Shown here: positions 28,543 to 47,713 of the stretch, one piece after another | Layout: the number at the start of each line of letters is the position of its first letter | Numbering within the stretch: position 1 is the stretch's first letter | Assembly (NCBI RefSeq): GCF_009882945.1 | Contig: NZ_WTUY01000005.1 | Location: forward strand, 1-64,000 | DNA length: 64,000 nucleotides | Source of the DNA: Alcanivorax sp. DP30 | GTDB taxonomy: Bacteria > Pseudomonadota > Gammaproteobacteria > Pseudomonadales > Alcanivoracaceae | Reading direction: 5' to 3' | Notes under the pieces: generated by a model | Seen by the model: the letters and a program-made list of their open reading frames with translations, nothing else | Database searches by the model: none | What the model was told of the DNA's origin: nothing | Program-made: the position numbers and the translations under genes

Positions 28543-29427
28543 TTATGCCGCCGGATTGCTATACAGATCATGCAGTTGGCCACCTTCAGCGAACAACTTC
28601 TCACGCCACAGTTTTTCCAGCCCTTTGGTGTCATGTTGATCAGGGTGGAAATCCGGCTGAATGAACTCAGGAAGGCGCGAAAGGATTTGCGATACAAACC
28701 CGTTACGACCTAGCAAAATATTCAGACCTTTAACATTATCGCTGATGTTGCCGAGCTGGCCGTCTTTGACAAGCATCCAGCTCCAGGTGATGCCCAGCAT
28801 CGGCAGCAAGACGACCATCGAGGCGAGGGCTGCAGCCACGCGCTCTGTACGGCTGTTACCAATAAGCTCATATACGTCGTAGGCAACAGATTTGTGTTCC
28901 AGCTCTTCGAGCGCATGCCACTGCCATATTTTGAGCATTTCAGGGTCTGCCTGGCGTACAAAATTCTCGTCTTCAAGTAGCTGCTCGGCGAGAAGCGCAG
29001 TAAAGTGCTCCATAAACGTGGTGGCGGCTAGCCGAGTGCTCGGCGGCAACTTCTCTAGTATGGCCAAGCCAATTTTGACAAACCGATCTGGCGACTGCAT
29101 GTCATAGCCGTACTCGGCGAGAATCTGGTTCAGCCTGTCGTGCTCTCGTCCGTGAATGGCCTCCTGCCCCATGAAGCCCGATATGGCCGCCCGTAGAGAT
29201 TCGTCCTTAACCTGACCACGAAAGTGTCTAACGGACTCCATGAAATAGCGTTCACCAGGTGGGAAAAAACCGGAGAGCATGGCAAAGAAAGTCGTTGCTG
29301 TGGCATTTCCAGCATAAAAATACTTTGGAATGGAATCCGGAAATTGAAAATTGATATGACGCGGTGGAATGCCCACCAGCGCGCCGCTGAGTTTCTTAAT
29401 GCTTTTTACCGTATTAGACGAGCGCAT
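28543..29427 (-). CDS. PF10118 protein, possible diiron enzyme, copy 2
   Basis: A 294-residue paralogue of the proteins at 20040 and 41257. The proposed ligands are Glu59 (GER), Glu89-x-x-His92 (QEAIH), Glu140 (MEHFTA) and Glu175-x-x-His178 (LEELEHKSVAYD). The spacing from first to second is 30 residues in all three copies. A hydrophobic segment follows at about 200-220. GGAGG four bases before the ATG at 29427 sets the start; the frame is open from 29442. It is the last gene of unit B, 41 bases after the SDR gene. The product ends close to the terminator of unit A, with which it converges. Confidence 0.75.
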   Translation of the reverse strand: MRSSNTVKSIKKLSGALVGIPPRHINFQFPDSIPKYFYAGNATATTFFAMLSGFFPPGERYFMESVRHFRGQVKDESLRAAISGFMGQEAIHGREHDRLNQILAEYGYDMQSPDRFVKIGLAILEKLPPSTRLAATTFMEHFTALLAEQLLEDENFVRQADPEMLKIWQWHALEELEHKSVAYDVYELIGNSRTERVAAALASMVVLLPMLGITWSWMLVKDGQLGNISDNVKGLNILLGRNGFVSQILSRLPEFIQPDFHPDQHDTKGLEKLWREKLFAEGGQLHDLYSNPAA

Positions 29428-29468
29428 ATCGCCTCCAATCAATAATGTGATAGTTAAAGAGAAAAATG

Positions 29469-30335
29469 TCAGGCCATGCCCTGATGCGTTTTTTTATTTT
29501 TGCTGCTTTGCTGTTTTTTAAACATAATTTCAAGCAAGCGTTGGTAGCCTGTGGGTATCAGTCTCTGTGTGGTGTCCAGCATGACCGCGTCACCGCCTAC
29601 CAAAACTCTTCGCCGGTTTTTCCGCACGCCTTTCAGGATGGTTCTAGCGGCAGCTTCGGGTGTGGTCATGGCAATTTTTTCGAACATGCTGGCAATCTCT
29701 TCTTTGTCGCCCATGTTCATGCTGCCCATGTCTCCCATGCGACTATTACGCGCGATGTTAGTCTTTACTCCACCTGGATGAACGCAAGTCGCGCTGACAA
29801 GGCCGCCCGCGATATCCAGCTCTTCACGTAATGATTCTGTAAATCCGCGAACAGCAAATTTTGCGGCGTTGTAGGCTGACTGGGTTGGAACACCGATAAT
29901 GCCGAAAACGCTGGAGATATTGACGATATGGCCTTCACCTATTTTCTGGAGATGGGGAAGAAATGCCTTTGTACCGTATACGACACCCCAGAAATTGATA
30001 TTCATCAGCCATTCAAAGTTTTCATAGCTCATGTTCTCGACGGTCTCACCCAGTCCCACACCGGCATTGTTCATGATGAGATTTACTTTTCCGTGTGTTG
30101 ATACGGTATCTTCCGCGTATTGATAAACCGCATTTTTGTTGCTGACATCAACAACATGAGTGCTGATGTTGACGGCGTAGCCTGCCAGTAATTCGACCGT
30201 CTTCTCTAGGCTTTCTTCGCTGATATCAGAGATCGCTAAGTGGCAGCCTTCTTTTGCTAGAGCAATCGCCGTGGCTTGCCCGATGCCCGACCCGGCGCCA
30301 GTGATCGCCGCGACTTTTCCTGAAAATGATTTCAT
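29469..30335 (-). CDS. Short-chain dehydrogenase/reductase (unit B)
   Basis: A 288-residue classical SDR. TGAGSGIG (12-19) binds the cofactor, with Asp37 of the following AISDIS likely favouring NAD+. NNAG is at 89-92, and the catalytic Ser141/142, Tyr155-x-x-x-Lys159 are present. The extra C-terminal region of about 50 residues ends in a Lys-rich tail. Its ATG overlaps the TGA of the monooxygenase gene. In context it would oxidise a secondary alcohol to the ketone that the adjacent monooxygenase uses; this is inferred from the gene set. Confidence 0.88.
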   Translation of the reverse strand: MKSFSGKVAAITGAGSGIGQATAIALAKEGCHLAISDISEESLEKTVELLAGYAVNISTHVVDVSNKNAVYQYAEDTVSTHGKVNLIMNNAGVGLGETVENMSYENFEWLMNINFWGVVYGTKAFLPHLQKIGEGHIVNISSVFGIIGVPTQSAYNAAKFAVRGFTESLREELDIAGGLVSATCVHPGGVKTNIARNSRMGDMGSMNMGDKEEIASMFEKIAMTTPEAAARTILKGVRKNRRRVLVGGDAVMLDTTQRLIPTGYQRLLEIMFKKQQSSKNKKTHQGMA

Positions 30336-31858
30336 CGTTGCGCCTCTATATTGAGTGTGTTGCTCAGAAGTTTTTGGACGAGATTGCGTTTCGTTTTATG
30401 TAGGTTTGTCGTTTCGAATTTAAGGTGGCCATCATTCATTTTTCCATAACGAAGCGCCGGCAGGTCGTGAAGATAATCGTTGAGGTTTTGCCAAGGATCT
30501 TTGTTGCCTTGGCGTGGCAGGCGGTCATCAGCACGTTGAATGTAGCCAGATCGAAGGTTGAGAAAGTTGACATCAGAGCCACACCCTTCCTCGTCGATAG
30601 GGGTCACCTTTTCTGCGCCTGTCTTGCGCATATGCTTGAGAAGCCGACAAACAAATTCGGAGGCAATATCTGCCTTGAGGGTCCAGGACGCGTTGGTATA
30701 GCCAAAGACCAGTGCCATATTAGGCACTTTTTCAAGCATTAAGCCTTTGTACATCATGGTGTTTGAGAGATTGACGTGCGTACCATCAACACGTAGCTCT
30801 GCGCCGCCCAACATTTGCAAATCCAGACCGGTAGCTGTGACGATAATATCGGCAGGTATCCAATCCCCAGATTCCAGTTTTATACCGGTTTTGGTGACAT
30901 TTTTTATATGATCCGTCACCACGGAAGCCTTGCCTTCACGAAGCACCTTGAACAGATCCCCCTTGGGAACTGCGCACATTCGTTCCTCCCATGGGTTGTA
31001 GTGAGGTTGAAAATGCTTCATGTCGATATCCGGCCCCAGTTGTTTGCGAGCAGCGGCCAGCAGTAATCTGCGGATCGCTTTGGGCTTACGAATCGATAGG
31101 TTAAATACGGTTCTCTGCAGCAGGATATTGCGTGTGCGCGCCATGCGGTAAACAAGCATTTCTGGCAGTACTCGGCGCAGGTTTTTCGAGATGAGATCTT
31201 GCTCAGGGACGGAGGCAACATAAGTAGGGGAGCGCTGTAACATGGTGACATGCGCAGCGCGGTCGGTCATCGCGGGCACCAGTGTTACGGCGGTGGCGCC
31301 GCTGCCGATCACGACAACTCGCTTACCCGTATAGTCGTAGTTATCTGGCCAGTGCTGCGGGTGAATTACGTCGCCGCCAAAGCGATTGATTCCAGGAATT
31401 TTCGGTGTGTAGCCGGCGTCATAGTTATAATAACCGGTACAGTTGAGGACAAACCCAGCGGTGAAAACTTCTTCTTCACCGGTTTCCTCGTTCAACGCGG
31501 TAACCGTCCAGCGATTGAATTCGCTGCTCCAGTCCTCGGCAGTGACTTTCAGGCCAAAATGAATTTTCTTGTGGACCTGATGATGCTCAGCGGTTTCTTC
31601 GATGTAATTGCGAATAGAGGGGCCATCGGCAAGCATCTTGGTGTCTGTCCAAGGCCGAAAGTTATAGCCGAGTGTGAACATATCGGAGTCCGAACGGATG
31701 CCGGGATAGCGAAATAAATCCCAGGTGCCACCAACGCGCTTGCGTCGCTCAAGGATGCCATAGCGTAGATCTGGGCACTTGCGGCTTAGGTGACAAGCCG
31801 CACCGACGCCGGAAAGGCCCGCGCCAATGATCAGCACGTCGAGGTGTTTATGTTTCAT
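30332..31858 (-). CDS. Class B flavoprotein monooxygenase, EthA/AlmA-like (Baeyer-Villiger type)
   Basis: A 508-residue FAD- and NADPH-dependent monooxygenase. It has GAGLSG at 12-17, RYPGIRSDSDM at 50-60, the Baeyer-Villiger fingerprint FGGDVIHPQHWP at 160-171 and the second dinucleotide motif GSGATA at 185-190. Much of the chain resembles mycobacterial EthA as I remember it, and also AlmA, the long-chain alkane monooxygenase of Acinetobacter and Alcanivorax. EthA-type enzymes insert oxygen into ketones to give esters. The gene overlaps both neighbours by four bases (ATGA). The fingerprint and the adjacent hydrolase favour ketone oxidation, but an AlmA role remains possible. Confidence 0.9.
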   Translation of the reverse strand: MKHKHLDVLIIGAGLSGVGAACHLSRKCPDLRYGILERRKRVGGTWDLFRYPGIRSDSDMFTLGYNFRPWTDTKMLADGPSIRNYIEETAEHHQVHKKIHFGLKVTAEDWSSEFNRWTVTALNEETGEEEVFTAGFVLNCTGYYNYDAGYTPKIPGINRFGGDVIHPQHWPDNYDYTGKRVVVIGSGATAVTLVPAMTDRAAHVTMLQRSPTYVASVPEQDLISKNLRRVLPEMLVYRMARTRNILLQRTVFNLSIRKPKAIRRLLLAAARKQLGPDIDMKHFQPHYNPWEERMCAVPKGDLFKVLREGKASVVTDHIKNVTKTGIKLESGDWIPADIIVTATGLDLQMLGGAELRVDGTHVNLSNTMMYKGLMLEKVPNMALVFGYTNASWTLKADIASEFVCRLLKHMRKTGAEKVTPIDEEGCGSDVNFLNLRSGYIQRADDRLPRQGNKDPWQNLNDYLHDLPALRYGKMNDGHLKFETTNLHKTKRNLVQKLLSNTLNIEAQR

Positions 31859-32823
31859 GGTGTAAGTCTCCGATCGGTGGAGCGTATGTGATTTCCTTGC
31901 GGGTCAAGGTGCTGAAGAAAGTCCAGCACTGCTCCGGTAAAAATACTGTTGCGGTCACCCGCTACCATATGACCTGCTTGATGGATTACTCGGTACTTGG
32001 CATGTGGCACGAGGGCTAATAATTCCTGGGCTCCTGCTTCGCTGAGTACATCACTGTGATGGCCGCGGATGAGTAATATCGGTAATTTGAGTTTGCTTGC
32101 TGCAAGATTGAGTCGCGCTCGGCCGAACATGCCTTCATTTGCTTCAGGGATTACCGCATGATCAAGAAACGCAGGATCCCAGTGCCAATGGAGACGGCCA
32201 TTAGCGTCCTGGCGGAGGTTTTTTCGCAAGCCCTGTGAGCTTGATGGTGCTTTTCGTGTTGGGTTATAGGCAGCCACGGCATCCTGAACCTGATCCAGAG
32301 AGTCGAAACCGTCAGGGTGGCGGCGCATGAACTCAATCACCCGGCGAACGCCTTTGGTCTCAAGCCGTGGGGCCACATCCACCAGTACCAGACCTCGACA
32401 GGGCAAGGGGGGCTCCTCCCCAAGGGTAAGCATGGCCGTCAGTCCGCCCATTGACGCTCCCACGATATAAGGTGATGTGGGAAGTGATTGGATGATGGCG
32501 CGGAGGTCTGATACCAGCGCGGTGCCGCTGTAATCCCCTTCAGGGCACCACTGGCTTTGACCATGACCGCGGGCATCAATGCAGGTAGCGCAGTACCCTG
32601 ATCTGGCCAGAGCTGTTGCCGTGTGCGCCCAGGCATGACGGGTCTGTCCGCCGCCATGCAGCAAAAGCACCTGCGGTGACTTCGGGTCCCCGAACTGGGT
32701 TGCACTAAGAACCAACCCGCCGTTTCCCGGGAACTGTATATCCCTGCCAGATTCCGGTGAGTGCTTTGAATCGCTGTAGGCAAGGCTTGCGAGGCTGTCG
32801 TGAGGATGCATCATTATAGGCAT
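31855..32823 (-). CDS. Alpha/beta-hydrolase (unit B)
   Basis: A 322-residue alpha/beta-hydrolase. HGGGQTRHAW near residue 56 gives the oxyanion region, the nucleophile elbow is GASMGG with Ser124, a late Asp lies in the RGHHSD segment and the His in QAGHMVAGD. It could cleave the ester or lactone made by the monooxygenase downstream, with which it is translationally coupled. The first ATG is only 6 bases from the operator copy at 32830-32849 and no ribosome binding site is seen; the ATG at 32814 or 32811, or leaderless translation, should be considered. Confidence 0.85.
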   Translation of the reverse strand: MPIMMHPHDSLASLAYSDSKHSPESGRDIQFPGNGGLVLSATQFGDPKSPQVLLLHGGGQTRHAWAHTATALARSGYCATCIDARGHGQSQWCPEGDYSGTALVSDLRAIIQSLPTSPYIVGASMGGLTAMLTLGEEPPLPCRGLVLVDVAPRLETKGVRRVIEFMRRHPDGFDSLDQVQDAVAAYNPTRKAPSSSQGLRKNLRQDANGRLHWHWDPAFLDHAVIPEANEGMFGRARLNLAASKLKLPILLIRGHHSDVLSEAGAQELLALVPHAKYRVIHQAGHMVAGDRNSIFTGAVLDFLQHLDPQGNHIRSTDRRLTP

Positions 32824-32829
32824 TTATTT

Positions 32830-32849
32830 ATTTGGCCAAACAACCAAAT
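32830..32849. promoter_or_regulatory. Shared operator, copy 2 (unit B)
   Basis: ATTTGGCCAAACAACCAAAT; on the minus strand it reads ATTTGGTTGTTTGGCCAAAT, one base different from copy 1. It touches the 5' end of the alpha/beta-hydrolase gene, so bound protein would cover the transcription or translation start. Confidence 0.7.
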
Positions 32850-32930
32850 ATTAGCGTTTCTTCTACACAAAGAAAAGTCCTATTTGACGATATTGATGAT
32901 CATTCAGCGGTGTGGCATACGGTGAGGACA

Positions 32931-32954
32931 GAAAAAAGCCCCCATAAAGGGGGC
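32931..32954 (-). terminator. Rho-independent terminator of unit C
   Basis: On the minus strand GCCCCC/GGGGGC (32949-32954 with 32938-32943) around a 5-nt loop is followed by TTTTTTC. It lies 31 bases after the stop of the 1026-residue lipoprotein gene. Confidence 0.9.
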
Positions 32955-32984
32955 ATGAAAGTGCGTTAGCACAAGGGGAATATA

Positions 32985-35900
32985 TTAAAAATCTTTTACC
33001 GGCAAAAAGGTAAAGGTCAGATCTACGCCGAGGGGGGGGACTTCCAGCTCAACACCCGCCAAGCCGATTCCCAAGAGATCAATGTTGGCCGGTATGATGA
33101 GAGGGTCGGGGTTACGGACTTTGAGAATCAGACGACCATCATCGACAAAGCGCAGGGGCCCTTCGAGGACGACTCCGGTAATTACTTTGCTGCGGATGTC
33201 ATGCCCGAGTTCTATAATTAGCCGTGGTTCTAACTCTGGTGCATCCACCATGAGATCAAGCGTAGCACTGAACCAGGGGCCATCCGGGGTTTCGGTGATA
33301 TGGCCCGTAATGGGTTGATTGTTTTCGTATGCCAATCGAAGTATCAGAGGACCGGTGTCCAGCGGTATTGTGATTAATCCCAGTGCGCGAGCTTCCAGAA
33401 AGACACTGGTCGTTGAGAGAACGGTAGGGAAGACTTTGGCGATGACGGAGCCGGTAACTACATTTGACGTCATGGGGTTGCTGTCGATTAAACGGCGGTT
33501 GACACTAACATTCGAATCATAATTGCTTACACCCGCTTGTAACGCGCCTGACCCGACAAAGGCATATTTCTTTTCCGGGCAATCCTCGCCTATACCACAG
33601 CCAATGTTGGCACTGGTTACTACTCCCGATCTGCTTTTTAGCCTAAGCTTTAGGAAGTTGGCATCGGCAGTTGCTCCGCCGTTACCGTCGGGAACCGCAC
33701 CTTGCTCGTTGTCATCGATACTAAGATTAGCGTTAACATCTGCAACCGGCAGAGAGCGTAACGATACACGGGTGATCTGGTCCTCTTCCCCTGTTACAAC
33801 GAAGTGATTGGTTAGGTCTGGGCCTCCTTCTCTAAGTTCTGGGGCTGTGGAACTGGACTGAGAGATTTGACGTGTTTGTATCGGTGCACCATCGGTTGAA
33901 CATATGGCATTGGTGCCACAAACAGGCGAGTTTTGCTCGGAGTGCAGGGTGTAGCGATAAAGCTCGCCAATCTGCCACGGGTTGTCCGGAAAAAACTCTA
34001 CTCTCTGGGCAAGCACCTTGAGACGACCATTGATGGGCTCCCATTCGTTATTGTTGGTATCAAAGTGTTCAACAACAAAAGTCTGATCATTAACCGTGTC
34101 GGCGTCGATACTGCGGCTAAAGATGACTCGAATACTAAAATCCTTGAACATATTCGGTACAGGATAGAGCGGGTCGCTATTTTTACCTCCTACACATCGG
34201 CCATTGCGCCAAGTCTCTCTTTCGCCGGTAAGATCGACATCGGTTAACGCACAGGGGTAACCGGGAAAAACAGCCGCGACAAGTGGTGCACGTAACTCAT
34301 TGGTGCTGCCATTGGGAAGAACGAAGTCCGGCAGACGGATATTGAGTGTCTGGTCCTGGTTGAGCGGGTTCCCCTGCGTATCTCGGAGCAGGCTGGTGAG
34401 GGCGAGCTGGACGTCTTTTCCGTGTTGAAGGATATCTCCCCCGATGACAATCGTGGCGCCATCGTGTCGCATTGGGTACTTCATTACTACACCATCAACA
34501 GAAACCTGTACAGCACCGTCAAGGAAAACCGAAGCTGGGTCCAATGGTTTGTTGAAGTTCAGGATAACGGGGTCACCAGGTCTTGCATTGGGTTGGAACG
34601 TTTCCCCCGGTGCCCAAGACTGGAGCTGCAAGGGCCGTGTATCTGGGCTTGGGGTAGGCGCTTGGCGCTGGTTTTGATAGGCCTCCATGCGAAATGAGAG
34701 CAGGCCAGATGCCCTCTCTAAGCCCAGCACTTCAAGTTCAACCACACTGACCGCATCCAGTACCAGCACACCATCTTTTACAATGGCTAAACCCGCCACC
34801 TGCACATTTAGCAGATTCTGGCTGAGAGCCGCATTGGGTTCTGTACCCTCAGCTGTCATTGCTGCATCCATATTAAGAAGGGCATAGCGGGGGACCGATG
34901 GGGAATCACTGAAAGGATTCGGGATCAGATACCCATTAGCGTCGCTGAGTATCGTGATGGTGACTTCACCGGTTTCTAGCCCGGACGGTACTTCGCCCAG
35001 TATATTGACGTCGACGTCGGTGCCTCGCAGTACGGAACCAGCGGGGACTCGCAGAGGAACGGCATCAGGAAAGTTGGGAGCAAAAGCCAGATCTGCTGCT
35101 AGATTCCCGCTCAATACGGTAAATGATTCATCTCCCAATACAAAGGATTGTACTGGTACCTGATTGATCGGGTTGCCGGTTAAAATTGACGCTAGTTCAG
35201 GTTGCTCAGCTCCAAGGCTGCCAACTTTGAGAATGGATGTAGCACGGGGAAGTGTCGTTTTCGGTACAAAAGTCCGATTGTACACCGGTAACTGTTCACC
35301 GGTAGTCTGGGCGCGCAGCCCAGCAATCGTCAGTGTGTGTTCAACAGGTTGTAGATCTTGCTCAGGATCTAGTGTCAGGTAACGGCCCCGCAAGAAGAGG
35401 GAGGCGGGAACCAGCTTGCCCAGGTTGTCACGAAGTTGAACCGATCCGGTTTCGCCATATGCTGTGCTGACTGGGTCAACCGTCTGGTTAAACGACATCC
35501 TGAGGGTGCTCATGTCGTTGGGACGCCTGGCATCATCAATTGACTCTAGCAATGACGGTTGGTCTAAAGGAGTGGCTGAAAGCAGAGTGAAAGAGCCGCT
35601 TCCCATGCTTTGCGATGCGCCGTCTTGACTGCCTGCAGTCCGAAAGCCAACGCGGTTCACGGAGTCGTCATCAATGGCTCCTAAGCCACCATCGTTGACA
35701 ACCAGATGGTACCCTTCAGCCGGAGCCAGCTGCGATTGAGGATACAGGGCCAGGCCTCTGCCATTGTCTACCACTTGATAGTCAACCATGACGGTATTCC
35801 CATCAGTATCACTGGCCAGCTGTAGGCGTGAGTCAATGTCATCAATAACCTCTTGCTCAAGTGCAGAGGAAAATCGCAGGATCACTGGCGCGGTAACTGG

Positions 35901-36065
35901 CACTTCTGTCTGGCCGGGATAAGGGTATGAAAAAATTAGTGTCTCTGGTGTGCTCCAGGGATTGTTTACATCGCCCTTGTCGCCACCGCATCCGGTCAGA
36001 AGGGCTGCTATGGCGATCGCCAGAATAGTAAAAAACTGATGGATTGTGCTGGAATTATTATTCAT
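32985..36065 (-). CDS. Large lipoprotein with bacterial Ig-like (SbsA-type) repeats
   Basis: A 1026-residue protein with lipobox LLTGC (Cys26). The N-terminal part has Big-like repeats around residues 40-145 (SYPYPGQTEVPVTAPVILRF start, YPQSQLAPAEGY later) and again near 495-585 and 640-720, each with a segment of the type P.. ..I.i.FS/N..lD. A C-terminal region of about 250 residues is beta-rich and lacks Cys. Three Cys pairs in the middle may form disulfides. It lies 34 bases after the FadL-like porin gene and probably works with it at the outer membrane, for example binding or passing hydrophobic substrate. The start has AGGAG upstream. No enzyme motif is seen. Confidence 0.75.
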   Translation of the reverse strand: MNNNSSTIHQFFTILAIAIAALLTGCGGDKGDVNNPWSTPETLIFSYPYPGQTEVPVTAPVILRFSSALEQEVIDDIDSRLQLASDTDGNTVMVDYQVVDNGRGLALYPQSQLAPAEGYHLVVNDGGLGAIDDDSVNRVGFRTAGSQDGASQSMGSGSFTLLSATPLDQPSLLESIDDARRPNDMSTLRMSFNQTVDPVSTAYGETGSVQLRDNLGKLVPASLFLRGRYLTLDPEQDLQPVEHTLTIAGLRAQTTGEQLPVYNRTFVPKTTLPRATSILKVGSLGAEQPELASILTGNPINQVPVQSFVLGDESFTVLSGNLAADLAFAPNFPDAVPLRVPAGSVLRGTDVDVNILGEVPSGLETGEVTITILSDANGYLIPNPFSDSPSVPRYALLNMDAAMTAEGTEPNAALSQNLLNVQVAGLAIVKDGVLVLDAVSVVELEVLGLERASGLLSFRMEAYQNQRQAPTPSPDTRPLQLQSWAPGETFQPNARPGDPVILNFNKPLDPASVFLDGAVQVSVDGVVMKYPMRHDGATIVIGGDILQHGKDVQLALTSLLRDTQGNPLNQDQTLNIRLPDFVLPNGSTNELRAPLVAAVFPGYPCALTDVDLTGERETWRNGRCVGGKNSDPLYPVPNMFKDFSIRVIFSRSIDADTVNDQTFVVEHFDTNNNEWEPINGRLKVLAQRVEFFPDNPWQIGELYRYTLHSEQNSPVCGTNAICSTDGAPIQTRQISQSSSTAPELREGGPDLTNHFVVTGEEDQITRVSLRSLPVADVNANLSIDDNEQGAVPDGNGGATADANFLKLRLKSRSGVVTSANIGCGIGEDCPEKKYAFVGSGALQAGVSNYDSNVSVNRRLIDSNPMTSNVVTGSVIAKVFPTVLSTTSVFLEARALGLITIPLDTGPLILRLAYENNQPITGHITETPDGPWFSATLDLMVDAPELEPRLIIELGHDIRSKVITGVVLEGPLRFVDDGRLILKVRNPDPLIIPANIDLLGIGLAGVELEVPPLGVDLTFTFLPVKDF

Positions 36066-36099
36066 TGCTCTTCTCCTGGTATTAATCGCATGTCTGTTG

Positions 36100-37461
36100 T
36101 TAAAACTTTAGCGACAGAGAGGCAGAAAATACGTTTATCTCACCATCAGCCCTTACCGTTTCATAAGGGGCTGGATCGGTGGAAGAGTTGATGGAGGTCA
36201 ATTCGAAATCAGCTTCATCCAGCATTTGATACTGGTAAGCGAAGGCGAGTTCTAATGGCATTTCAATTATTGGTGCGCTGGCCAGACGGTAGCTGGCACC
36301 CAGACCGAAAACCTTTTTATCGGTGTCAAGATAGTTAACATCCTGGGATCGGCTGGATTTTAAAGGTGAGTCCTCCAGGGCTGCGCCGGCAAAGAGTTTC
36401 ATGGACTCCGACCACTGATAGCTAACGCCAATTCGGGGAATGGTGATGTCGTCAAACGCTAGATTAGCCTGATCGCGAATAGTATCGCCGGCAAACTCGC
36501 TTTCAAGCGCAGACCAATTGTGCTGCTCAATGCCTGCCGTCAATTCGAATTTGCCAACGGGAAGCAAAATGGCTGCGCCGAGAACTTCAGGTTGATAGGT
36601 ATCAATTGTACTAAGCGCTAGGCTCAGGCCTGGTTCAGGGATAACTCCCGGCACAACCACATTGGCATCCACGGATACCTCATAGCTACTTTCCCCCCGC
36701 CAGAAAAGAGCCAGCTCCATCTTATCCATTCCAAAAGGCATGCACTCGCTTGTACCGCAAAACATTTCTCCAGAGCGGATATTGATACCTAGTGCCGGTG
36801 ATAGGGATGGAGAGGCTTCCAGGGAAAGTTTTTCAGAGTCTGTGTTGCCGCCAAGGTCTGAAACTGCTTCCAGGTTGGCTTTGGCCTGGAGGGTAAGACG
36901 TGCTGATGCGCCGACGTCAACGCCCCTCAGGACGTTGCTGATAGCGCCACCAAAGGCGAGATAAAGTGGCTGAGATTCATAGCGTAGAAACTGCCCTTTC
37001 TGGCTGGTATTGGCCTGATAGGGCAATAGGTTGGATGTGTATTGGTCTACACCCACGTTCAGGCCAAAGTAAATGGGCTTGCCGATGCTGGAAATGCCGG
37101 CGACGCGGCTTTTGAAGCCGATTAATAATAGTTCGGAACTGGTGTCAGAGAGGATATCATTCTCTCGCTCCAAAGGGTCTGTTCCTCCCAGTGATTTGGC
37201 ACGTAATTCCTGGTCGCCATACTGCACAATGACTCCCAGTTCGCCCTCCGGAGAGCGGGCCATGGCGGCCGGGTTGTAGTACACCGACCAGCTGTTGGAT
37301 GCAAAAGGACTGAATGCCAAGGCAGTGCCGGCATTCATCGGGCCTAGCCCATAAGTGCTCGCTCCGTCGCCAGCACCGCCAATGGCCAAGCCGGGTGAGA
37401 GCAATGCTGTAGTGCACGTGAAGAAAAGGAGAGGTAACCGTTTTGTTTTTTTTGCAGACAT
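36100..37461 (-). CDS. FadL/OmpP1/TodX-like outer-membrane hydrocarbon transporter
   Basis: A 453-residue beta-barrel protein with a signal peptide (basic start, hydrophobic core, cleavage near residue 27) and a C-terminal Phe (SLSLKF), as for Bam-inserted barrels. The mature N-terminus has STYGLGPMNAGTALAFSPFASNSWSVYYNPAAMA, resembling the hatch of FadL-family porins with the conserved NPA. Long aromatic-edged strands follow. FadL proteins take up long-chain fatty acids or aromatic and aliphatic hydrocarbons. It heads unit C, with AGGAG before the ATG and an operator copy 61 bases upstream. Some tools label this group TraF-like. Confidence 0.8.
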   Translation of the reverse strand: MSAKKTKRLPLLFFTCTTALLSPGLAIGGAGDGASTYGLGPMNAGTALAFSPFASNSWSVYYNPAAMARSPEGELGVIVQYGDQELRAKSLGGTDPLERENDILSDTSSELLLIGFKSRVAGISSIGKPIYFGLNVGVDQYTSNLLPYQANTSQKGQFLRYESQPLYLAFGGAISNVLRGVDVGASARLTLQAKANLEAVSDLGGNTDSEKLSLEASPSLSPALGINIRSGEMFCGTSECMPFGMDKMELALFWRGESSYEVSVDANVVVPGVIPEPGLSLALSTIDTYQPEVLGAAILLPVGKFELTAGIEQHNWSALESEFAGDTIRDQANLAFDDITIPRIGVSYQWSESMKLFAGAALEDSPLKSSRSQDVNYLDTDKKVFGLGASYRLASAPIIEMPLELAFAYQYQMLDEADFELTSINSSTDPAPYETVRADGEINVFSASLSLKF

Positions 37462-37521
37462 TTCAGGCTCCTAAAGGGGCTGTTCTGGTTATAGATGGTG
37501 AGTTGTTCTGATTTTCTGTTT

Positions 37522-37541
37522 ATTTGGTTAAACAACCAATA
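37522..37541. promoter_or_regulatory. Shared operator, copy 3 (unit C)
   Basis: ATTTGGTTAAACAACCAATA; on the minus strand TATTGGTTGTTTAACCAAAT, 16 of 20 positions equal to copy 2. It lies 61 bases upstream of the FadL-like gene. The weaker right arm (CCAATA) suggests lower affinity. Confidence 0.6.
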
Positions 37542-37794
37542 TTGGTCTCAGGCCTAGCTGTCTGTGTCCATGACTGTAATGACGTTGTGCTCTGGCGCTC
37601 CGGTAATGTCACACATTATTGCGTGACGCCCAGTCGTCGTCTATGACGAGATGCCGTGTTCTGTTGCTGACCAGGCATGGGTTATCGAGTGGTGTAACGC
37701 CTCCTGGGCAGCGCTAAAGCGCACGGTCAACTGGATCTGGAGAGCTCTGCTGGCGTGACATGTACAAGCAGGCTCCACACTTTCTCTGGCACAG

Positions 37795-39438
37795 TCACTG
37801 AGAATTGTTATCTGTTTGTTTTGCCGGAATGCCCTTCTCTGGCAGCTGGGGATGTGGCTCACAGGCTTGTCTCCCGCCGTCGTTTCTGCTGGGAGTGTGC
37901 CCGGCCAGTACACTGAACCGGTAGTGATCCATCGGTAAATGCTTGGCTCGCCACAGCATTTCCAGAGAGGTAGAGGGCCGCAGCATTGGCGCGTCACCAT
38001 GATGGTCGAAGTAATAACTGTTCGACAGCGCGCAGTTGTGGTTAAGGAACACGGTGTTTTGCTGGCGTTTCTGGATATTGCGGAAATACGCGTCATGGAC
38101 GGACTGACGTATTTCCACTTGGCTGGCTCCACGTCGGTTGGCTTCGCGAATACAGCGAGAGAGGTGGATGGCGTTCCCTTCGACCATCTTGAAGTAAGAG
38201 GTGCCGATAAGGGCATAGGGACCGAGCATGATGTAAAAGTTCGGGTAGCCCGGAATGGTCAACCCTTCATAAGCCTGGTAACGGTAGTCATGCCAGAAAT
38301 CGCCCAAATTGATGTTGTTGCTGCCGATGACGTCGAACGAGGGAATATTTCCTTTCTCGAAGGTTTTGTAACCGGTGGCGAGGATCAAGGTATCGATACG
38401 CCGTGAGCGGCCGTCCTGGGTGGTGATGCCGCGGGACGTAATACGCTTGATCGGGGTCGTGACAAGCTCAACGTTGTTTCGGGCAAAGGTTCGGAAATAG
38501 TCGTTGGAAAACGTTGGCCTTTTGCACCCGAAGCCGTATTTCGGTGTCAGTGCTTGCCACAGGTCCTGGCGGTTGGGCAGCTGTTCGCGCAGGTTGTTTA
38601 TGCCCGCCTTTTCACACATGCGAACCAGCCAAGGGGCCTGCCGGTAATATATTGCGGAAAGCACCATCAGGGTTTCGCTGACGGTGTCGGTAGCGCCGCG
38701 AAGGCTGCGTTGCAAGCCCGGTACGGTTCGGAACAATACCTTGAGCCAGCCAGGCAGAGTCTGATCCGGCTTCTTCAGCACCCAGATGGGGGTGCGCTGG
38801 TAGACGTCAAGTTGACGAGCCTGGCGGGCAATTTTCGGAATCAGTTGCACTGCAGTGGCGCCAGTGCCTATTACCGCTACTCGCTTGTCACTAAGATCAA
38901 GGTCATCTGGCCAGCGTGCAGTGTGAATGACATTGCCCTGGAACGTATCAAGCCCTTCAATATCTGGCATCTTGGGTGATATCAAACCGCCACAGGCCGA
39001 GACAATATGGCGTGCACTAAGTCGCCTGCCATCCGTAAGATCGATCAACCAGGCATGGCTGTCGAGATCAAAACGGGCGCTAGCGACTTCGACACCAAAG
39101 CGAATCAGTGGGTAGATGCCATACTTGCTTGTTACCTGTCTTGTATACTGGTAAAGCTCGTTTCCCGGCGCAAAAACGCGAGACCAATTTGCGTTTTGTT
39201 CGAAGGAAAATGAATAGGTAAACGAGGTAATGTCGACAGCGATTCCCGGATAACGGTTGTCGCGCCAGGTTCCTCCCACATCCTTGCTTCGCTCAAGGAT
39301 CAAGATATCTTTGATGCCATCGGCACGCAGCTGGATTGCCGCACCAATTCCAGAAATTCCCGCGCCGATGATAATGACTTCATGATCAGGAGTAACGCTG
39401 GGACGAGGGTTATGGATTGCAACAGCAGCCATATTCAT
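37795..39438 (-). CDS. Baeyer-Villiger-type flavin monooxygenase (unit D)
   Basis: A 547-residue class B monooxygenase distinct from the one in unit B. It has GAGISG at 25-30, GGTWRDNRYPGIAVD at 55-69, the Baeyer-Villiger fingerprint FQGNVIHTARWP at 166-177 and GTGATA at 191-196. It resembles cyclohexanone/4-hydroxyacetophenone-type enzymes more than EthA. It would convert a ketone to an ester or lactone with NADPH and O2. It is the last gene of unit D and its start overlaps the esterase stop (ATGA). The C-terminal 40 residues are polar and unlike the family. A 250-base gap without a clear terminator follows. Confidence 0.9.
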   Translation of the reverse strand: MNMAAVAIHNPRPSVTPDHEVIIIGAGISGIGAAIQLRADGIKDILILERSKDVGGTWRDNRYPGIAVDITSFTYSFSFEQNANWSRVFAPGNELYQYTRQVTSKYGIYPLIRFGVEVASARFDLDSHAWLIDLTDGRRLSARHIVSACGGLISPKMPDIEGLDTFQGNVIHTARWPDDLDLSDKRVAVIGTGATAVQLIPKIARQARQLDVYQRTPIWVLKKPDQTLPGWLKVLFRTVPGLQRSLRGATDTVSETLMVLSAIYYRQAPWLVRMCEKAGINNLREQLPNRQDLWQALTPKYGFGCKRPTFSNDYFRTFARNNVELVTTPIKRITSRGITTQDGRSRRIDTLILATGYKTFEKGNIPSFDVIGSNNINLGDFWHDYRYQAYEGLTIPGYPNFYIMLGPYALIGTSYFKMVEGNAIHLSRCIREANRRGASQVEIRQSVHDAYFRNIQKRQQNTVFLNHNCALSNSYYFDHHGDAPMLRPSTSLEMLWRAKHLPMDHYRFSVLAGHTPSRNDGGRQACEPHPQLPEKGIPAKQTDNNSQ

Positions 39439-40394
39439 GATGCAACCTCGACTATGGCGCTATCGCTAGCATTGACCGTTTGGGATGGGGCTTTGCCAAC
39501 GTTATTGCTGGTCAGATACTTTCCCAGAATTCGGACGATGGTAGGGAAGTCCTGCTTTGCCTCTGGTAGCAAAAAGGTGAATACGGGCCACACGTGCGGC
39601 ATATCATCGCGCTCCAGAACCTGCACGGGCACCCCCGCATCTCGCGCGCATTGTGCTGCTGCATGGGTATCGTCGCGCAGACACTCTTCGCTACTGACAG
39701 TGAAAAGTAGAGGGGGCAAGCCGGTGAAATCCGCGGTGATTGGTGAGGCATACGGGTGAGCGGGGTCCGCGCCGGCCAGATAGATATCCGTTGCCACCTC
39801 AATCATGCCATGGGAAAGCATGGTATCGCTGTCGCTATTCGCCTGTCTGGACATCAGGGTGCCTCGCGCATCCGATGCCGGCGAAATGGCGAGGGCGCAA
39901 GCCGGCATTTTCAGCAGCTGATCACGGGCACGCAGCAATGTGACTAACGTCAGGTTGCCTCCCGCAGAGTCTCCTGCAATGACCACAGGGCGAGGGTCTG
40001 CGATCAGTTCACGATATACATTAAAGGCGTCATCCGTTGCTGCCGGGAAGGGGTGCTCAGGGGCTAGTCGGTAATCCGGAAGAAAGACCCGCGCATTCAG
40101 GGCGTGAGCCAAACGGCCACAAAAGTGGTGATAGGTATCAAGCCGCCCGCCGATGAAGGCGCCACCATGCAGGTAGAGTATGGTGATTTGTGGGTCTGCG
40201 GTGCCTAGCCAGTGGCCAGCTATTCCTGCAACCTTGCCTCGCTTGAGTCGCACTCCGCGTGGCAGCAGAGAGGGGGCCAAAGGCGCGTTCATCACCCTGC
40301 GAAGATGTCTTACCAGTTTGTCCGGGTCGCGTATATCACGCTTCATGCCGGCGCGAAAAAGTAGCTTCAAAATTGTTGTAGGAATGGAGGCCAT
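39435..40394 (-). CDS. Esterase of the HSL (hormone-sensitive lipase) type
   Basis: A 319-residue alpha/beta-hydrolase-3 family member with HGGAF (76-80) for the oxyanion hole and GDSAGG (141-146) with nucleophile Ser143. The Asp lies in the ECLRDD segment and the His in DMPHVWP. It would hydrolyse the ester or lactone formed by the co-transcribed monooxygenase. AAGGA precedes the ATG. It is unrelated at family level to the hydrolase of unit B, though it fills the same slot. The C-terminal 25 residues appear to be an extension. Confidence 0.9.
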   Translation of the reverse strand: MASIPTTILKLLFRAGMKRDIRDPDKLVRHLRRVMNAPLAPSLLPRGVRLKRGKVAGIAGHWLGTADPQITILYLHGGAFIGGRLDTYHHFCGRLAHALNARVFLPDYRLAPEHPFPAATDDAFNVYRELIADPRPVVIAGDSAGGNLTLVTLLRARDQLLKMPACALAISPASDARGTLMSRQANSDSDTMLSHGMIEVATDIYLAGADPAHPYASPITADFTGLPPLLFTVSSEECLRDDTHAAAQCARDAGVPVQVLERDDMPHVWPVFTFLLPEAKQDFPTIVRILGKYLTSNNVGKAPSQTVNASDSAIVEVAS

Positions 40395-40432
40395 ATTGAA
40401 TTCCTTGCGTGTTCCGTTTCCTCAAATGCGGT

Positions 40433-41260
40433 TTAATCAGCCAGCATTCTGTAAGCTTCGCCAATCGCGCGGGCGTATAGTCGTGGCGTCAGGCGTTTCA
40501 ACCGCCAGGCAAGCCGGCCGTCAATTTGTGGTAGCATGTAAAGCTCACCTCGATCAAGGGCACTGAGGGTCTGTCGGGCCACCTGGTCGGCGTTGGTGAG
40601 GGCATAGCGGGTCATCGCTGAACGGGCAAAGTCACGGCGACGTTCAGGCAGGCGCCCATTCTCGACGATATTGGTCGGGACCACGGTTGGGCACAGGGCC
40701 GTGATTTTTACGCCGGTTCCGGTCAGTTCAGAAGACAGCGTTTCGGACAGGGCCAGTACCCCTGCCTTGGTGACGTTGTAGGCGGCCATTTCCGGGGCGG
40801 ACCCGAATGCGGCAGCAGAGGCCACATTGATGATGCCTCCATAGCCCAGATCGCGAAGCTGAGGGGCAAAATAATGGCAGCCGTGAATAACTCCCCATAG
40901 ATTGACGTTCATGCACCAGTGCCAATCTTCAAGTGACACCTCGCCGATTGGGCCACCGAGGCCGACGCCGGCGTTGTTGATTACCAGGGTTACCGGCCTG
41001 CCGAGCAAAGGCTCGGCATTTTCCGCCAGGTATGCCATCTGTTTTTCATCGCCGACATCACACCCCAGGGCTACCGCGTGAGTACCGAGTGCTCGCAGGC
41101 TGATCGCCACCTGTTCGGCGCGCTCTTCATTGATATCGACACACAGTACCGAACCGCCTCGACGGGCAACTTCGTAAGCAAAGCTACGACCGATGCCGCT
41201 ACCCGCCCCGGTGATGACAGCTGCCGCCTGAGTTGACGGGTGCAAGGGTTTCTTTTTCAT
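40433..41260 (-). CDS. Short-chain dehydrogenase/reductase (unit D)
   Basis: A 275-residue SDR with TGAGSGIG (17-24), NNAG (95-98), Ser148 region and Tyr161-x-x-x-Lys165. Asp42 after the second strand (LCVDIN) suggests NAD+ preference. The frame is open from 41272, but the ATG at 41260 overlaps the PF10118 stop (ATGA) and has GGGGGCAGG just upstream. Expected role: oxidation of an alcohol to a ketone before the monooxygenase step. It shares the VGLGG/VGLGE loop after NNAG with the SDR of unit B, so the two may use similar substrates. Confidence 0.88.
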   Translation of the reverse strand: MKKKPLHPSTQAAAVITGAGSGIGRSFAYEVARRGGSVLCVDINEERAEQVAISLRALGTHAVALGCDVGDEKQMAYLAENAEPLLGRPVTLVINNAGVGLGGPIGEVSLEDWHWCMNVNLWGVIHGCHYFAPQLRDLGYGGIINVASAAAFGSAPEMAAYNVTKAGVLALSETLSSELTGTGVKITALCPTVVPTNIVENGRLPERRRDFARSAMTRYALTNADQVARQTLSALDRGELYMLPQIDGRLAWRLKRLTPRLYARAIGEAYRMLAD

Positions 41261-42201
41261 GCCTGCCCCCATGCGGGTTCAGGTTGTGGCGTTTCGAATG
41301 TACCGTGTACATTGTTGGCTCGGTGGTCTCTGAGCGCTTGATAGGCCTTATGAGGGTCGCCAGTTCTTTCGTAGGCGCGTTTCCAGATCCGGATTACATC
41401 ACGGTTATCGTCATCCCACGGGTGGAAAGTGGGGGAGAAATAGGGGGGCACGCCAGCGAGTACCTTGGAAAGAATGCCGGGACGCCAGAACAGGACTTTG
41501 GTCATTTTGGCGGCGGACCACAAATTCAGAATTTGACGATCCTTGTAGAGCAGATAGGTCTGGTTGCCGATCATAATGGGGAAGCCCAGGGCAATGGCCA
41601 GTAGCATGCCACTGATACGTAGTCGGTAACTGCGGTAGCCACCACCACTGGCATCGACGAAGACGTCATAACTGACGCTCTTGTGCTCGGTTTCTTCGAC
41701 AAAGTGCCAGTAGAGCATGGCACGCAAATCCGGGTGGGTTTCGTCAAACAGCTCCGGGTGCTCAAGCAGTACCGAGGAAATAATGGCCGTGAAATGTTCA
41801 AACGCCGCTGCGATGGAGCTCTGCATATCGTCACTGAGGCGGTGTTGGAGTTGCTTACGGATCAGCTTGAACACGCCTTCAACCTTGTCGATGGGAACCC
41901 CGTGTTGCACGCCGATGGCGTTCATTTCATCGTGCTCACGAGCATGAATGCGCTCCTGACGAATGAATTCTTTAGCTGCGTTCAGCACTTCTGGATCGTC
42001 AAGCTTGCCAAGCTGCCGTCTTGCAGAATTCATCACCCAGCGTTCACCGTCGGGGACGGCGGCGAGAATGGCATTCATCCAGTGAGTGGACCACGGGTCG
42101 TTGCGAAACCAGTGGCGAGCCACGTTTTCGATGTTCATGGGAAAGTGAATGTCACGGGTTACAACCTCGTCGTAACCAATCTTGCGGTTTGCCAGAGCCA
42201 T
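41257..42201 (-). CDS. PF10118 protein, possible diiron enzyme, copy 3
   Basis: A 314-residue PF10118 protein. Proposed ligands are Glu53 (GER), Glu83-x-x-His86 (QERIH), Glu135 (FEHFTA) and Glu170-x-x-His173 (VEETEHKSVSYD), at almost the same spacing as copies 1 and 2. A hydrophobic stretch lies at about residues 190-210. The frame is open from 42252, but GGGAGC before the ATG at 42201, and the operator at 42239-42258 inside the longer frame, support the shorter start. It is the first gene of unit D and is coupled to the SDR gene. Confidence 0.75.
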   Translation of the reverse strand: MALANRKIGYDEVVTRDIHFPMNIENVARHWFRNDPWSTHWMNAILAAVPDGERWVMNSARRQLGKLDDPEVLNAAKEFIRQERIHAREHDEMNAIGVQHGVPIDKVEGVFKLIRKQLQHRLSDDMQSSIAAAFEHFTAIISSVLLEHPELFDETHPDLRAMLYWHFVEETEHKSVSYDVFVDASGGGYRSYRLRISGMLLAIALGFPIMIGNQTYLLYKDRQILNLWSAAKMTKVLFWRPGILSKVLAGVPPYFSPTFHPWDDDNRDVIRIWKRAYERTGDPHKAYQALRDHRANNVHGTFETPQPEPAWGQA

Positions 42202-42238
42202 TGGATCGCTCCCAAGTAAAGTGCATTCATTGGACTTT

Positions 42239-42258
42239 ATTTGTATAACCAACCAAAT
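42239..42258. promoter_or_regulatory. Shared operator, copy 4 (unit D and TetR)
   Basis: ATTTGTATAACCAACCAAAT; on the minus strand ATTTGGTTGGTTATACAAAT, 16 of 20 positions equal to copy 2. It lies between the PF10118 gene at 42201 (minus) and the TetR gene at 42383 (plus), so one bound protein could control both. Confidence 0.65.
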
Positions 42259-42382: not shown

Positions 42383-42988
42383 GTGGGAAGAAAGAAAAAT
42401 CAGGTAACACCGGTAGCGCAAGCGGATCGAGAGTTTGTGCTCGGTGCTGCGGCACGTCTATTTCGTCAAAAGGGGTTCGATAAAACCACCGTTAAAGAAA
42501 TTGCCGAAGCTTGTGACATGTTGCCTGGCAGCCTGCATTACCGTTATCCCTCCAAGGAAAGCATCCTGGTAGACCTGATGCGTCTTGCGCTTGAGCAAGC
42601 CTCCACAGCTTTGTCTGAGGCTATTCGGGGGGAGAGTGAACCACTAGAGCAGTTGCGTCAGGGCATTAATGCTCACCTTGAGTTACTGGTCGGCGGTTCG
42701 GATATGGTCTATGTGCTCCTTTTTGAATGGCGCTCCTTGCAGGGCCAGTCACGCAAGGAAATGATTGATCTACGAGACAGATACGAACTTCTTTGGTCTG
42801 CTATGATCCAATCCTTGTCCTCTCAAAACCTGATTCGTGCGGATGTAGATCGTGATCTTTTGCGCCTTATCGGCTTGGGAGCGTTAAATTGGGTCGCAAC
42901 ATGGTTTAACGAGGGCGGGCGGTATACCGTAAAAGATATCGGTGACTTTGTGTGGGTGGTAATTAAAGACGGTGTGCTCAAGCGCTAG
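42383..42988 (+). CDS. TetR-family regulator, candidate controller of units A-D
   Basis: A 201-residue TetR protein. The helix-turn-helix is TTVKEIAEACDMLPGSLHYRYPSKESI; the C-terminal domain, with SRKEMIDLRDRYELLW, resembles KstR2-like regulators that sense acyl-CoA thioesters of ring-derived acids. That likeness is from memory and moderate. The start is GTG at 42383 with GGGAG upstream. It is divergent from unit D, with operator copy 4 between them. The four operator copies upstream of catabolic units make it the best candidate to bind them. Confidence 0.85.
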   Translation: MGRKKNQVTPVAQADREFVLGAAARLFRQKGFDKTTVKEIAEACDMLPGSLHYRYPSKESILVDLMRLALEQASTALSEAIRGESEPLEQLRQGINAHLELLVGGSDMVYVLLFEWRSLQGQSRKEMIDLRDRYELLWSAMIQSLSSQNLIRADVDRDLLRLIGLGALNWVATWFNEGGRYTVKDIGDFVWVVIKDGVLKR

Positions 42989-43044: not shown

Positions 43045-44091
43045 TTATGTGCCCGTCCTTTGTCTGTACTGATCAGGAGTCTGACCAAACCAGCGTTTAA
43101 ACGCCCGTCTGAAGCTGGCAGTGTCATGATAATTCAACAGTGTAGCGGTTGCTTCGACCGAGAGCTGACTCTCGCATAAATAGCTTGCTGCTTGCCTGGA
43201 TAGCACTTCATCGCGAATCTTTCTGAAGCTGCTGTTTTCTTTCTTGAGCTTCCGTGCAAGGGTGCGTTTGCTCATGAAGAGGGAGGCGGCGGCTTCATCT
43301 TCACTCAGTGTCCCGGGTGGTCGGGAAAGCATCATTTTCTGTAGCCGAGTCCGATAGTCCGGTTCAGGGTTCTGAAGGCGCGCAAGCATGGATTCGCACT
43401 GCTGAAAGGCCAGATGATAGCTTTCATGATTGGCTGATGCGTTCGGCTTTCGACATAACTCCATTGCTAATTTTAGTTTGAAGTGATTGCAGTCGAAGTA
43501 AACTTTGCCTGGTAAATACTCCCGGTACATGTCCTGGTAGACGGGGGCTGGATGGGGGAAATGAACCTCTGATTCATACAATGGGCGACCTACGATGAAC
43601 TCGCCAATTTCAAAAAAAGCCTTGATCACAGTATCTGCCAAGCAGCGCTCCACGTCGTTGTCCATCGCTACCTGAAAGCTCACAACACATTCCAGATAAT
43701 CCTCAGTGTTTTGCAGGTTCACCTGAATAAAGCTTGCTCGCGTAGGCAGGAAAGTGTGAACGGCTTGCAGCGCGGTATAAAGGTCGGGGCTGCTGTTAGC
43801 AACAAAGCCCATCACCCCATGGGTTGCCGGGGTGAGGCGCCTGCCCAACCGCAAGCCGAACTCTGGTTTACCGGATAGATCCAAAGCATTACGCAAGATC
43901 TGCATCTGTTGGGTTGCGGTGAGTCGACTCTCATCTTTGAGTAATTGCGTAACATCCACATCTGTTTTGCGCAGGAGTCGGGGCAGCTCTCGTGCACTCA
44001 GACCAAGTTCACGGGCGATAAGGCGTGAGTAGTTCGATGGGATATCAGCATCCACGCTTTGCAAGCTATCACTCTGCGTAGTTATTGCCAT
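43045..44091 (-). CDS. AraC-family activator of the CYP153 operon
   Basis: A 348-residue AraC/XylS regulator. The N-terminal 200 residues form the Arabinose_bd-like domain of the OruR/ArgR type (LRLGRRLTPATHGVMGF), and the C-terminal 100 residues hold two helix-turn-helix motifs (LSEDEAAASLFMSKRTLARKL and LSVEATATLLNYHDTASFRRAFKRWFG). It is divergent from the ferredoxin-P450 operon, whose promoter carries direct repeats 21 bp apart. This matches the regulator/P450 arrangement known from Alcanivorax. GGAGAGG precedes the ATG. The inducer is presumably an alkane or its oxidation product. Confidence 0.9.
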   Translation of the reverse strand: MAITTQSDSLQSVDADIPSNYSRLIARELGLSARELPRLLRKTDVDVTQLLKDESRLTATQQMQILRNALDLSGKPEFGLRLGRRLTPATHGVMGFVANSSPDLYTALQAVHTFLPTRASFIQVNLQNTEDYLECVVSFQVAMDNDVERCLADTVIKAFFEIGEFIVGRPLYESEVHFPHPAPVYQDMYREYLPGKVYFDCNHFKLKLAMELCRKPNASANHESYHLAFQQCESMLARLQNPEPDYRTRLQKMMLSRPPGTLSEDEAAASLFMSKRTLARKLKKENSSFRKIRDEVLSRQAASYLCESQLSVEATATLLNYHDTASFRRAFKRWFGQTPDQYRQRTGT

Positions 44092-44123
44092 TAGCCTCTC
44101 CTCGGAAAGTCATTACTGTCTTT

Positions 44124-44160
44124 AAATGTCCCCGTCCTGTCAAGAAATGTCCTCGCTGGC
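44124..44160 (+). promoter_or_regulatory. Direct repeats at the CYP153 promoter, candidate AraC sites
   Basis: AAATGTCCCCGTCCTG (44124-44139) and AAATGTCCTCGCTGGC (44145-44160) share AAATGTCC-CG and start 21 bp apart, two helical turns. A TATATA box at 44168-44173 lies just beyond, so the second repeat would overlap the -35 region, as at AraC/XylS-activated promoters. Confidence 0.55.
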
Positions 44161-44213
44161 ATGCCGCTATATAGCCAATCTTCAGGTTAGACATAAATAC
44201 TAGGAGACGCGCT

Positions 44214-44534
44214 GTGGGAAAAATTATCTTTATTGAACATGACGATACCGAGCATGTGACGGAATTCAGGGCGGGTTCTACGCTTATGCAAGTTGCGGTT
44301 GATAACGCCGTGCCAGGTATCGATGGTGATTGTGGCGGCGAGTGCGCCTGTGGTACCTGCCACATGATTGTTGCCGATGAGTGGTTCGGCAATACCGGAA
44401 CGGTTGGTGACGCGGAAGAACAGATGCTGTCCATGACCCCGGAGCGGGCGAGAACCTCGCGTCTGGGCTGCCAGGTAGAAATTACTGAGGCGATGGACGG
44501 TATGACCGTGCATTTGCCTGAATTCCAGATGTAA
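44214..44534 (+). CDS. [2Fe-2S] ferredoxin (adrenodoxin/putidaredoxin type)
   Basis: A 106-residue ferredoxin with cluster ligands Cys40, Cys46, Cys49 (C-x5-C-x2-C) and Cys86. It passes electrons from the reductase encoded at 47714 to the P450. The start is GTG at 44214 with TAGGAG upstream. It is the first gene of the operon, 14 bases before the P450 gene. Confidence 0.93.
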   Translation: MGKIIFIEHDDTEHVTEFRAGSTLMQVAVDNAVPGIDGDCGGECACGTCHMIVADEWFGNTGTVGDAEEQMLSMTPERARTSRLGCQVEITEAMDGMTVHLPEFQM

Positions 44535-44548
44535 GCAGGGAGAAAGCT

Positions 44549-47616: not shown

Positions 47617-47713
47617 GCATCCTGTGCGTGCGCGATCGATATCGCGGCCTCTTGCTCACCTGCGGTGTTGGGATATGAAAATACGCTTCCAAGGCGCACA
47701 AAAGAGACAACCT

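Follow-up and report, generated by a model that had tools for sequence, protein, structure and literature searches.

In the 64,000-nucleotide stretch of Alcanivorax sp. DP30 that was analyzed here (contig NZ_WTUY01000005.1, positions 1 to 64,000; hereafter, the window), a gene for a FadL-type outer-membrane channel is followed on the same strand by a gene for a large lipoprotein with Ig-like domains. Both open reading frames (ORFs) lie exactly where the initial annotation had placed them, and its view of a two-gene unit with an operator upstream and a terminator downstream was borne out (Table 1), the terminator-like hairpin lying where the total number of such hairpins is not above chance (7 vs 5.2). 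The channel protein belongs to the FadL family (Pfam PF03349, 49.9 bits; gathering cut-off 29.7) and matches the NCBIfam AupA profile NF041571 (E 2.7e-113) with 378.9 bits, below the equivalog cut-off of 840 bits, so that it is a homologue of AupA and not a certified equivalog. The gap between the two genes is 34 bp, an adjacency like that of aupA and aupB. Judged by homology, the pair is of the AupA-AupB kind of alkane-uptake pairs, here in a distinct subfamily.

Table 1. Positions of the gene pair, its parts and the linked features in the window.
Feature	Position	Strand	Basis
FadL/AupA-type outer-membrane channel gene, 453 aa	36100..37461	-	ORF list, Pfam, NCBIfam, gene-order match
AupB-type Ig-like lipoprotein gene, 1026 aa	32985..36065	-	ORF list, Pfam, lipobox
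Signal peptide with lipobox LLTGC (LLTG-C26)	35988..36065	-	Cys26-Gly27 invariant in 16/16 aligned homologues
First and best Big_5 Ig-like domain, residues 39-131	35673..35951	-	Pfam; structural matches
Predicted C-terminal beta-barrel domain, residues about 834-1020	33006..33566	-	Structure prediction
Intrinsic-terminator-like hairpin and T run	32938..32954	-	About 30 bp past the lipoprotein stop codon
Palindromic operator TTGGTTGTTTAACCAA upstream of the FadL gene	37523..37539	.	Pattern and conservation
Linked operon: alpha/beta hydrolase, AlmA-type flavin monooxygenase (30332-31858), SDR, PF10118 protein	28543..32823	-	
Similar palindrome before the 28543..32823 operon	32831-32847		
Second linked operon: flavin monooxygenase, alpha/beta hydrolase, SDR, PF10118 protein	37795..42252	-	
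Similar palindrome at the 37795..42252 operon	42240-42256		
TetR-family gene, whose product may read the operator	42383..42988	+	Inferred from position

In Marinobacter hydrocarbonoclasticus SP17, aupA and aupB are cotranscribed as an operon, mutants in either gene lose growth on micellar n-hexadecane as well as its binding, and AupB co-precipitates with AupA (PMC5989066). AupB is therefore a described partner of the kind that the initial annotation had believed to be lacking for FadL, and the handover of a hydrophobic substrate, which had been proposed for the lipoprotein, gains support from this homologous pair. The same study located aup genes in 76 bacteria, including 31 Alcanivorax genomes, in copy numbers of up to six, and singled out the desorption of the alkane from the outer membrane as an open step; its main text uses neither the word lipoprotein nor the word Ig-like (PMC5989066).

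The conservation of the gene pair, for which a survey in hydrocarbon degraders had been suggested, was analyzed by a scan of genome contigs that gave 155 relatives of the lipoprotein, 80 of which, in 76 loci, were compared. A FadL homologue was found directly upstream of the lipoprotein gene in 72 of them and directly downstream in three (L089, L095 and L101), and one locus (L098) was undecidable at a contig edge; the two genes thus adjoin in 75 of 76 loci. The pairing was also observed in all 29 further loci of the window's family. Close copies occur in Alcanivorax, with a partner in A. nanhaiticus that is 99.5% identical, and the hydrocarbon-degrader setting of the pair was likewise supported. 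In seven Marinobacter loci (L115-L117, L119 and L123-L125), an AupB homologue with 33-35% identity to the window lipoprotein over most of its 1026 residues is preceded by AupA; the AupB of strain SP17 itself was not picked out by name among these homologues. In this genome, none of the three top-scoring FadL genes is accompanied by a lipoprotein of this kind, so that the pairing is confined to the AupA branch.

The window pair resembles aupA-aupB in that a FadL-family gene precedes a homologous partner gene in one operon with a terminator, in alkane degraders and with several paralogous copies. It differs in forming a separate clade at the identity and AupA score given above, and in being tied to an AlmA-type cluster and an operator of its own; a further difference concerns AupB, which was put mainly in the inner membrane (PMC5989066). 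Pairs of this kind have thus been published before. What stands out here is a sister clade paired with OmpW, the predicted C-terminal barrel of the lipoprotein and a lead to the reported regulator AlmR, all described below; the conserved lipobox with its Gly and the tie of the subfamily to the AlmA-type cluster are new as well.

The link to the AlmA-type cluster is a property of the subfamily. All 30 loci whose lipoproteins are at least 51% identical to that of the window, many of which are close relatives and hence not independent, carry the flavin monooxygenase of the cluster beside the pair, as opposed to 0 of the 46 other FadL-paired loci. In a tree of 71 rows obtained by a quick method, three groups are each separated by a branch: the subfamily (support 100), the remaining FadL partners (99) and the partners of OmpW (100). 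The operator was compared in 29 loci of the subfamily, where the best upstream palindrome site keeps 8/8 fixed bases in 19, 7/8 in nine and 6/8 in one; among 56 loci of other FadL partners, 8/8 was reached in none and 7/8 in five, and random stretches gave 8/8 in 7 of 375. As a bare pattern with up to three mismatches, TTGGTTGTTTAACCAA is not rarer in the window than expected by chance (20 vs 15.2). A genome-wide operator pattern, TTGGYNNNNNRCCAA, was discarded, as it has the wrong spacing and gave 10 forward matches vs 20 in the control.

The gene order additionally connects the pair to the published OmpT. The OmpT of Alcanivorax corresponds to ABO_0193 and B5T_02055, OmpT-1 of A. dieselolei is assigned to long-chain alkanes, and almA of A. 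dieselolei B5 is B5T_02052 (PMC6850023, PMC4675940), so that ompT and almA are three tags apart. In a related genome (G029), a FadL protein of 465 aa, a lipoprotein of 1025 aa, a hydrolase of 334 aa and a flavin monooxygenase of 500 aa are encoded on one strand, and this four-gene order fits the tags 02055 to 02052. On this basis, with the tags assigned from the gene order, the window FadL gene is probably the orthologue of ompT, beside almA. Family, distance from almA and gene order agree between the two, and the point of difference is the lipoprotein partner, which the cited descriptions of OmpT do not mention. In strain KS-293, ompT has been reported to be upregulated on n-dodecane.

The lipoprotein carries an N-terminal signal, a lipobox and a Cys predicted to be lipid-modified, as expected for a bacterial lipoprotein from its sequence. 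In 82 of 84 FadL-type copies, this Cys is followed by Gly (by Asp and Asn in one each), and Gly is found in all seven Marinobacter copies. An Asp at this position (+2) acts as an inner-membrane retention signal. By this Asp+2 rule, Gly would not predict retention in the inner membrane, which is in tension with the published location of AupB. A Pfam scan of the lipoprotein up to E 1 returned only the Ig-like domain Big_5 (PF13205), in three stretches with E 3e-18; it returned neither OmpW (PF03922) nor the domains of a VolA-type lipase (Lipase_bact_N and an alpha/beta hydrolase), and a sequence search of the PDB up to E 1 gave no match.

These features also bear on a rather unlikely alternative, in which the lipoprotein sits on the outside of the cell, capturing alkane or micelles there and passing them into the channel. 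The conserved lipobox and the lack of Asp at +2 in 83 of 84 FadL-type copies agree with such a display, as does the example of VolA of Vibrio cholerae, a surface lipoprotein (PMC9496633, PMC12208996) whose gene tag is next to the tag of a FadL homologue (vca0863 and vca0862), but AupB fractionates mostly with the inner membrane and aup mutants show no defect in adhesion to hexadecane droplets (PMC5989066). Moreover, VolA is a lysophospholipase, and kinship with it was rejected on account of the missing lipase domain.

The full-length model of the lipoprotein is of modest quality, with a mean predicted local distance difference test (pLDDT) score of 70.9, and structure searches with it mostly return Ig domains, which resemble those of S-layer proteins and L,D-transpeptidases. 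For this reason, the C-terminal 245 residues (782-1026) were folded alone, using an alignment of 60 rows, which resulted in a confident all-beta fold with long strands (mean pLDDT 90.3; predicted template modelling score, pTM, 0.85). The top VIA-align matches of this domain are OprG (175 residues, 3.5 A) and OmpW (167 residues, 3.7 A), both with Z 10.7, followed by OmpA (Z 8.5) and a polyisoprenoid-binding protein of the YceI type (1wub, Z 7.3).

Taken by themselves, the two top matches would suggest that the domain is an OmpW-like membrane barrel, which would make the lipoprotein a second subunit of the channel within the outer membrane, an explanation that we regard as improbable. In order to tell a membrane barrel from a soluble one, the conservation of the polar face of the strands was subtracted from that of the hydrophobic face. 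The hydrophobic face was better conserved in the C-terminal domain (+0.17, 86% of windows), as in the Ig domains of the lipoprotein (+0.08 to +0.26, 89-100%), in contrast to the membrane channels AupA (+0.03, 47%) and OmpW (-0.02, 45%), these values being based on overlapping windows and, for OmpW, on only 7 rows. In addition to the absence of a Pfam match to OmpW, the sequences end in PVKDF or PIK-type tails and not in the aromatic C-terminal signal that is usual for membrane barrels. The face conservation favours, for this predicted fold, a soluble barrel with a hydrophobic inside. Such an architecture would be shared with the YceI and lipocalin barrels, from which the window domain differs in its long strands, a Z score below the level of kinship and the lack of a sequence match.

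Another line of evidence comes from lipoproteins of the same family that are not accompanied by FadL. This genome has four such lipoproteins, two of them in a tandem of FadL-lipoprotein pairs (L129). The fourth (L130:6040-10124; contig C20, about 34039-38123) has no FadL, and the idea that it lacks a channel was rejected, since an OmpW-family gene (PF03922, E 8.9e-17), one of two in all in this genome, begins at its stop codon. In the sister clade to which the OmpW partners belong, an OmpW homologue was found directly downstream in 19 of 20 loci (L131-L150) and AupA in none; L145 has a broken gene. A profile of the C-terminal domain matched 4 of 369 genomes of the class, namely this genome and three others. 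In G126, the lipoprotein gene is directly followed by the sole OmpW gene of that genome, and in G236 OmpW directly follows at one of three places; at L173, L175 and L177 (one in G236, two in G344), OmpW is located about 1.6-2.8 kb downstream and is not adjacent. The distant lipoproteins L174 (G236) and L176 (G344) have neither OmpW nor FadL beside the gene; a 771-aa ORF downstream in the former (L174:2529-9891) looks like an outer-membrane receptor.

Within the order, the same profile matched 48 of 390 genomes, and 36 of the 37 match places outside the window's family were examined, the one left out being at a contig end (G469). AupA was beside the gene in 26 of them, OmpW in six, neither in four and both in none. 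Among the four places with neither channel, L241 and L242 are broken genes, L243 is at a contig edge, and L227 is an intact lipoprotein gene with an ORF on its 5' side that is transposase-like by its translation. As OmpW is the family of the alkane importer AlkL, the pairing in the sister clade argues that the lipoprotein would serve hydrophobic channels generally, and not FadL as such. In the open-access literature that was searched, no paired lipoprotein of AlkL or OmpW was found.

Based on what was computed here (the homology, the conserved pairing, the lipobox, the operator, the monooxygenase link, the OmpW pairing of the sister clade and the confident barrel prediction), we propose, with a probability of roughly 0.6, that the two genes encode a pair for alkane uptake of the AupA/AupB type, specialised for the AlmA route of long-chain or branched alkanes, in which the lipoprotein accepts the alkane from the channel. 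The FadL-type channel would let the alkane into the outer membrane; the lipoprotein, which we infer to be lipid-anchored in the outer membrane, would reach into the periplasm on its string of Ig-like domains and dock on the channel; and the C-terminal soluble barrel would take up the alkane in its hydrophobic interior. This handover could ease a slow step, the departure of the alkane from the outer membrane towards the oxidising enzymes. The physical interaction of the two proteins and their need for the uptake of micellar hexadecane were shown for the Marinobacter homologue (PMC5989066), and by analogy may apply to the window pair.

Several observations weigh against this proposal. In some E. 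coli fusions, a Gly at +2 can allow retention in the inner membrane, where AupB was mostly recovered. The best structural matches of the C-terminal domain are membrane barrels, a Foldseek search with it gave no match at E 0.001 or better, and the face comparison has the limits given with its values. Furthermore, the AupA score of the channel stays under the equivalog level, and the transcription of ompT in A. borkumensis SK2 has been reported to lack coherence with the substrate. If the proposal is true, an acceptor barrel common to FadL- and OmpW-type channels would be a testable molecule for the exit of long alkanes from the outer membrane and their crossing of the periplasm, and two literatures, on OmpT and almA in Alcanivorax and on AupAB in Marinobacter, would be joined.

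The position of the lipoprotein gene also raises the question of AlmR, which has been reported to repress almA in A. dieselolei. In strain B5, AlmR is said to be encoded close upstream of almA and to have a predicted Ig-like domain (PMC11784139), and in a review its regulator family is given as 'None', with gene inactivation as the evidence (PMC8784404). In G029, no Big_5 gene other than that of the lipoprotein is found near an AlmA homologue, and the lipoprotein gene is located about 1.1 kb upstream of the flavin monooxygenase, which is 73% identical. AlmR, compared here by its published description only, may therefore be the lipoprotein described here (30332-36065 in the window and L127:8283-13927 are the stretches concerned). 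From this it could be argued that the lipoprotein is not a carrier but an envelope sensor or regulator, which reports or gates alkane entry and acts on almA. We consider such a role unlikely: AlmR reportedly falls with long-chain alkanes (PMC5116465), which would be unexpected of a gene that shares its operon with ompT, and in Marinobacter the loss of aupA and the loss of aupB have equal phenotypes, which favours transport (PMC5989066).

The transport reading can be widened, tentatively and at somewhat less than even odds, to the whole family: Ig-like lipoproteins with a soluble C-terminal barrel of hydrophobic lining might be general periplasmic acceptors of hydrophobic substrates that have been recruited by two unrelated families of outer-membrane channels, FadL, with its gene upstream, and OmpW, with its gene downstream, and one member would be AlmR, a secreted lipoprotein called a 'transcriptional repressor'. 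AlmR would then deserve a second look. The open-access literature searched contained no link of AupB with OmpW pairs or with AlmR.

Regarding the surroundings of the pair, the two linked operons (28543-32823 and 37795-42252) run in parallel and flank it on both sides, as if duplicated. Palindromes of the TTGG-N8-CCAA type are present at four gene starts in the window (19950, 32831, 37523 and 42240), and two of them stand beside TetR genes (19238-19783 and 42383-42988), which suggests a possible regulon. Farther along (43045-48946), the window contains genes for an AraC regulator, a P450, a GMC oxidoreductase and a ferredoxin-reductase-like protein, in an order that matches the one described for ABO_0199-ABO_0203 of A. 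borkumensis. Finally, a BtrH_N/DUF4872 protein is encoded at 20909-21910, within an apparent lipid-metabolism operon.

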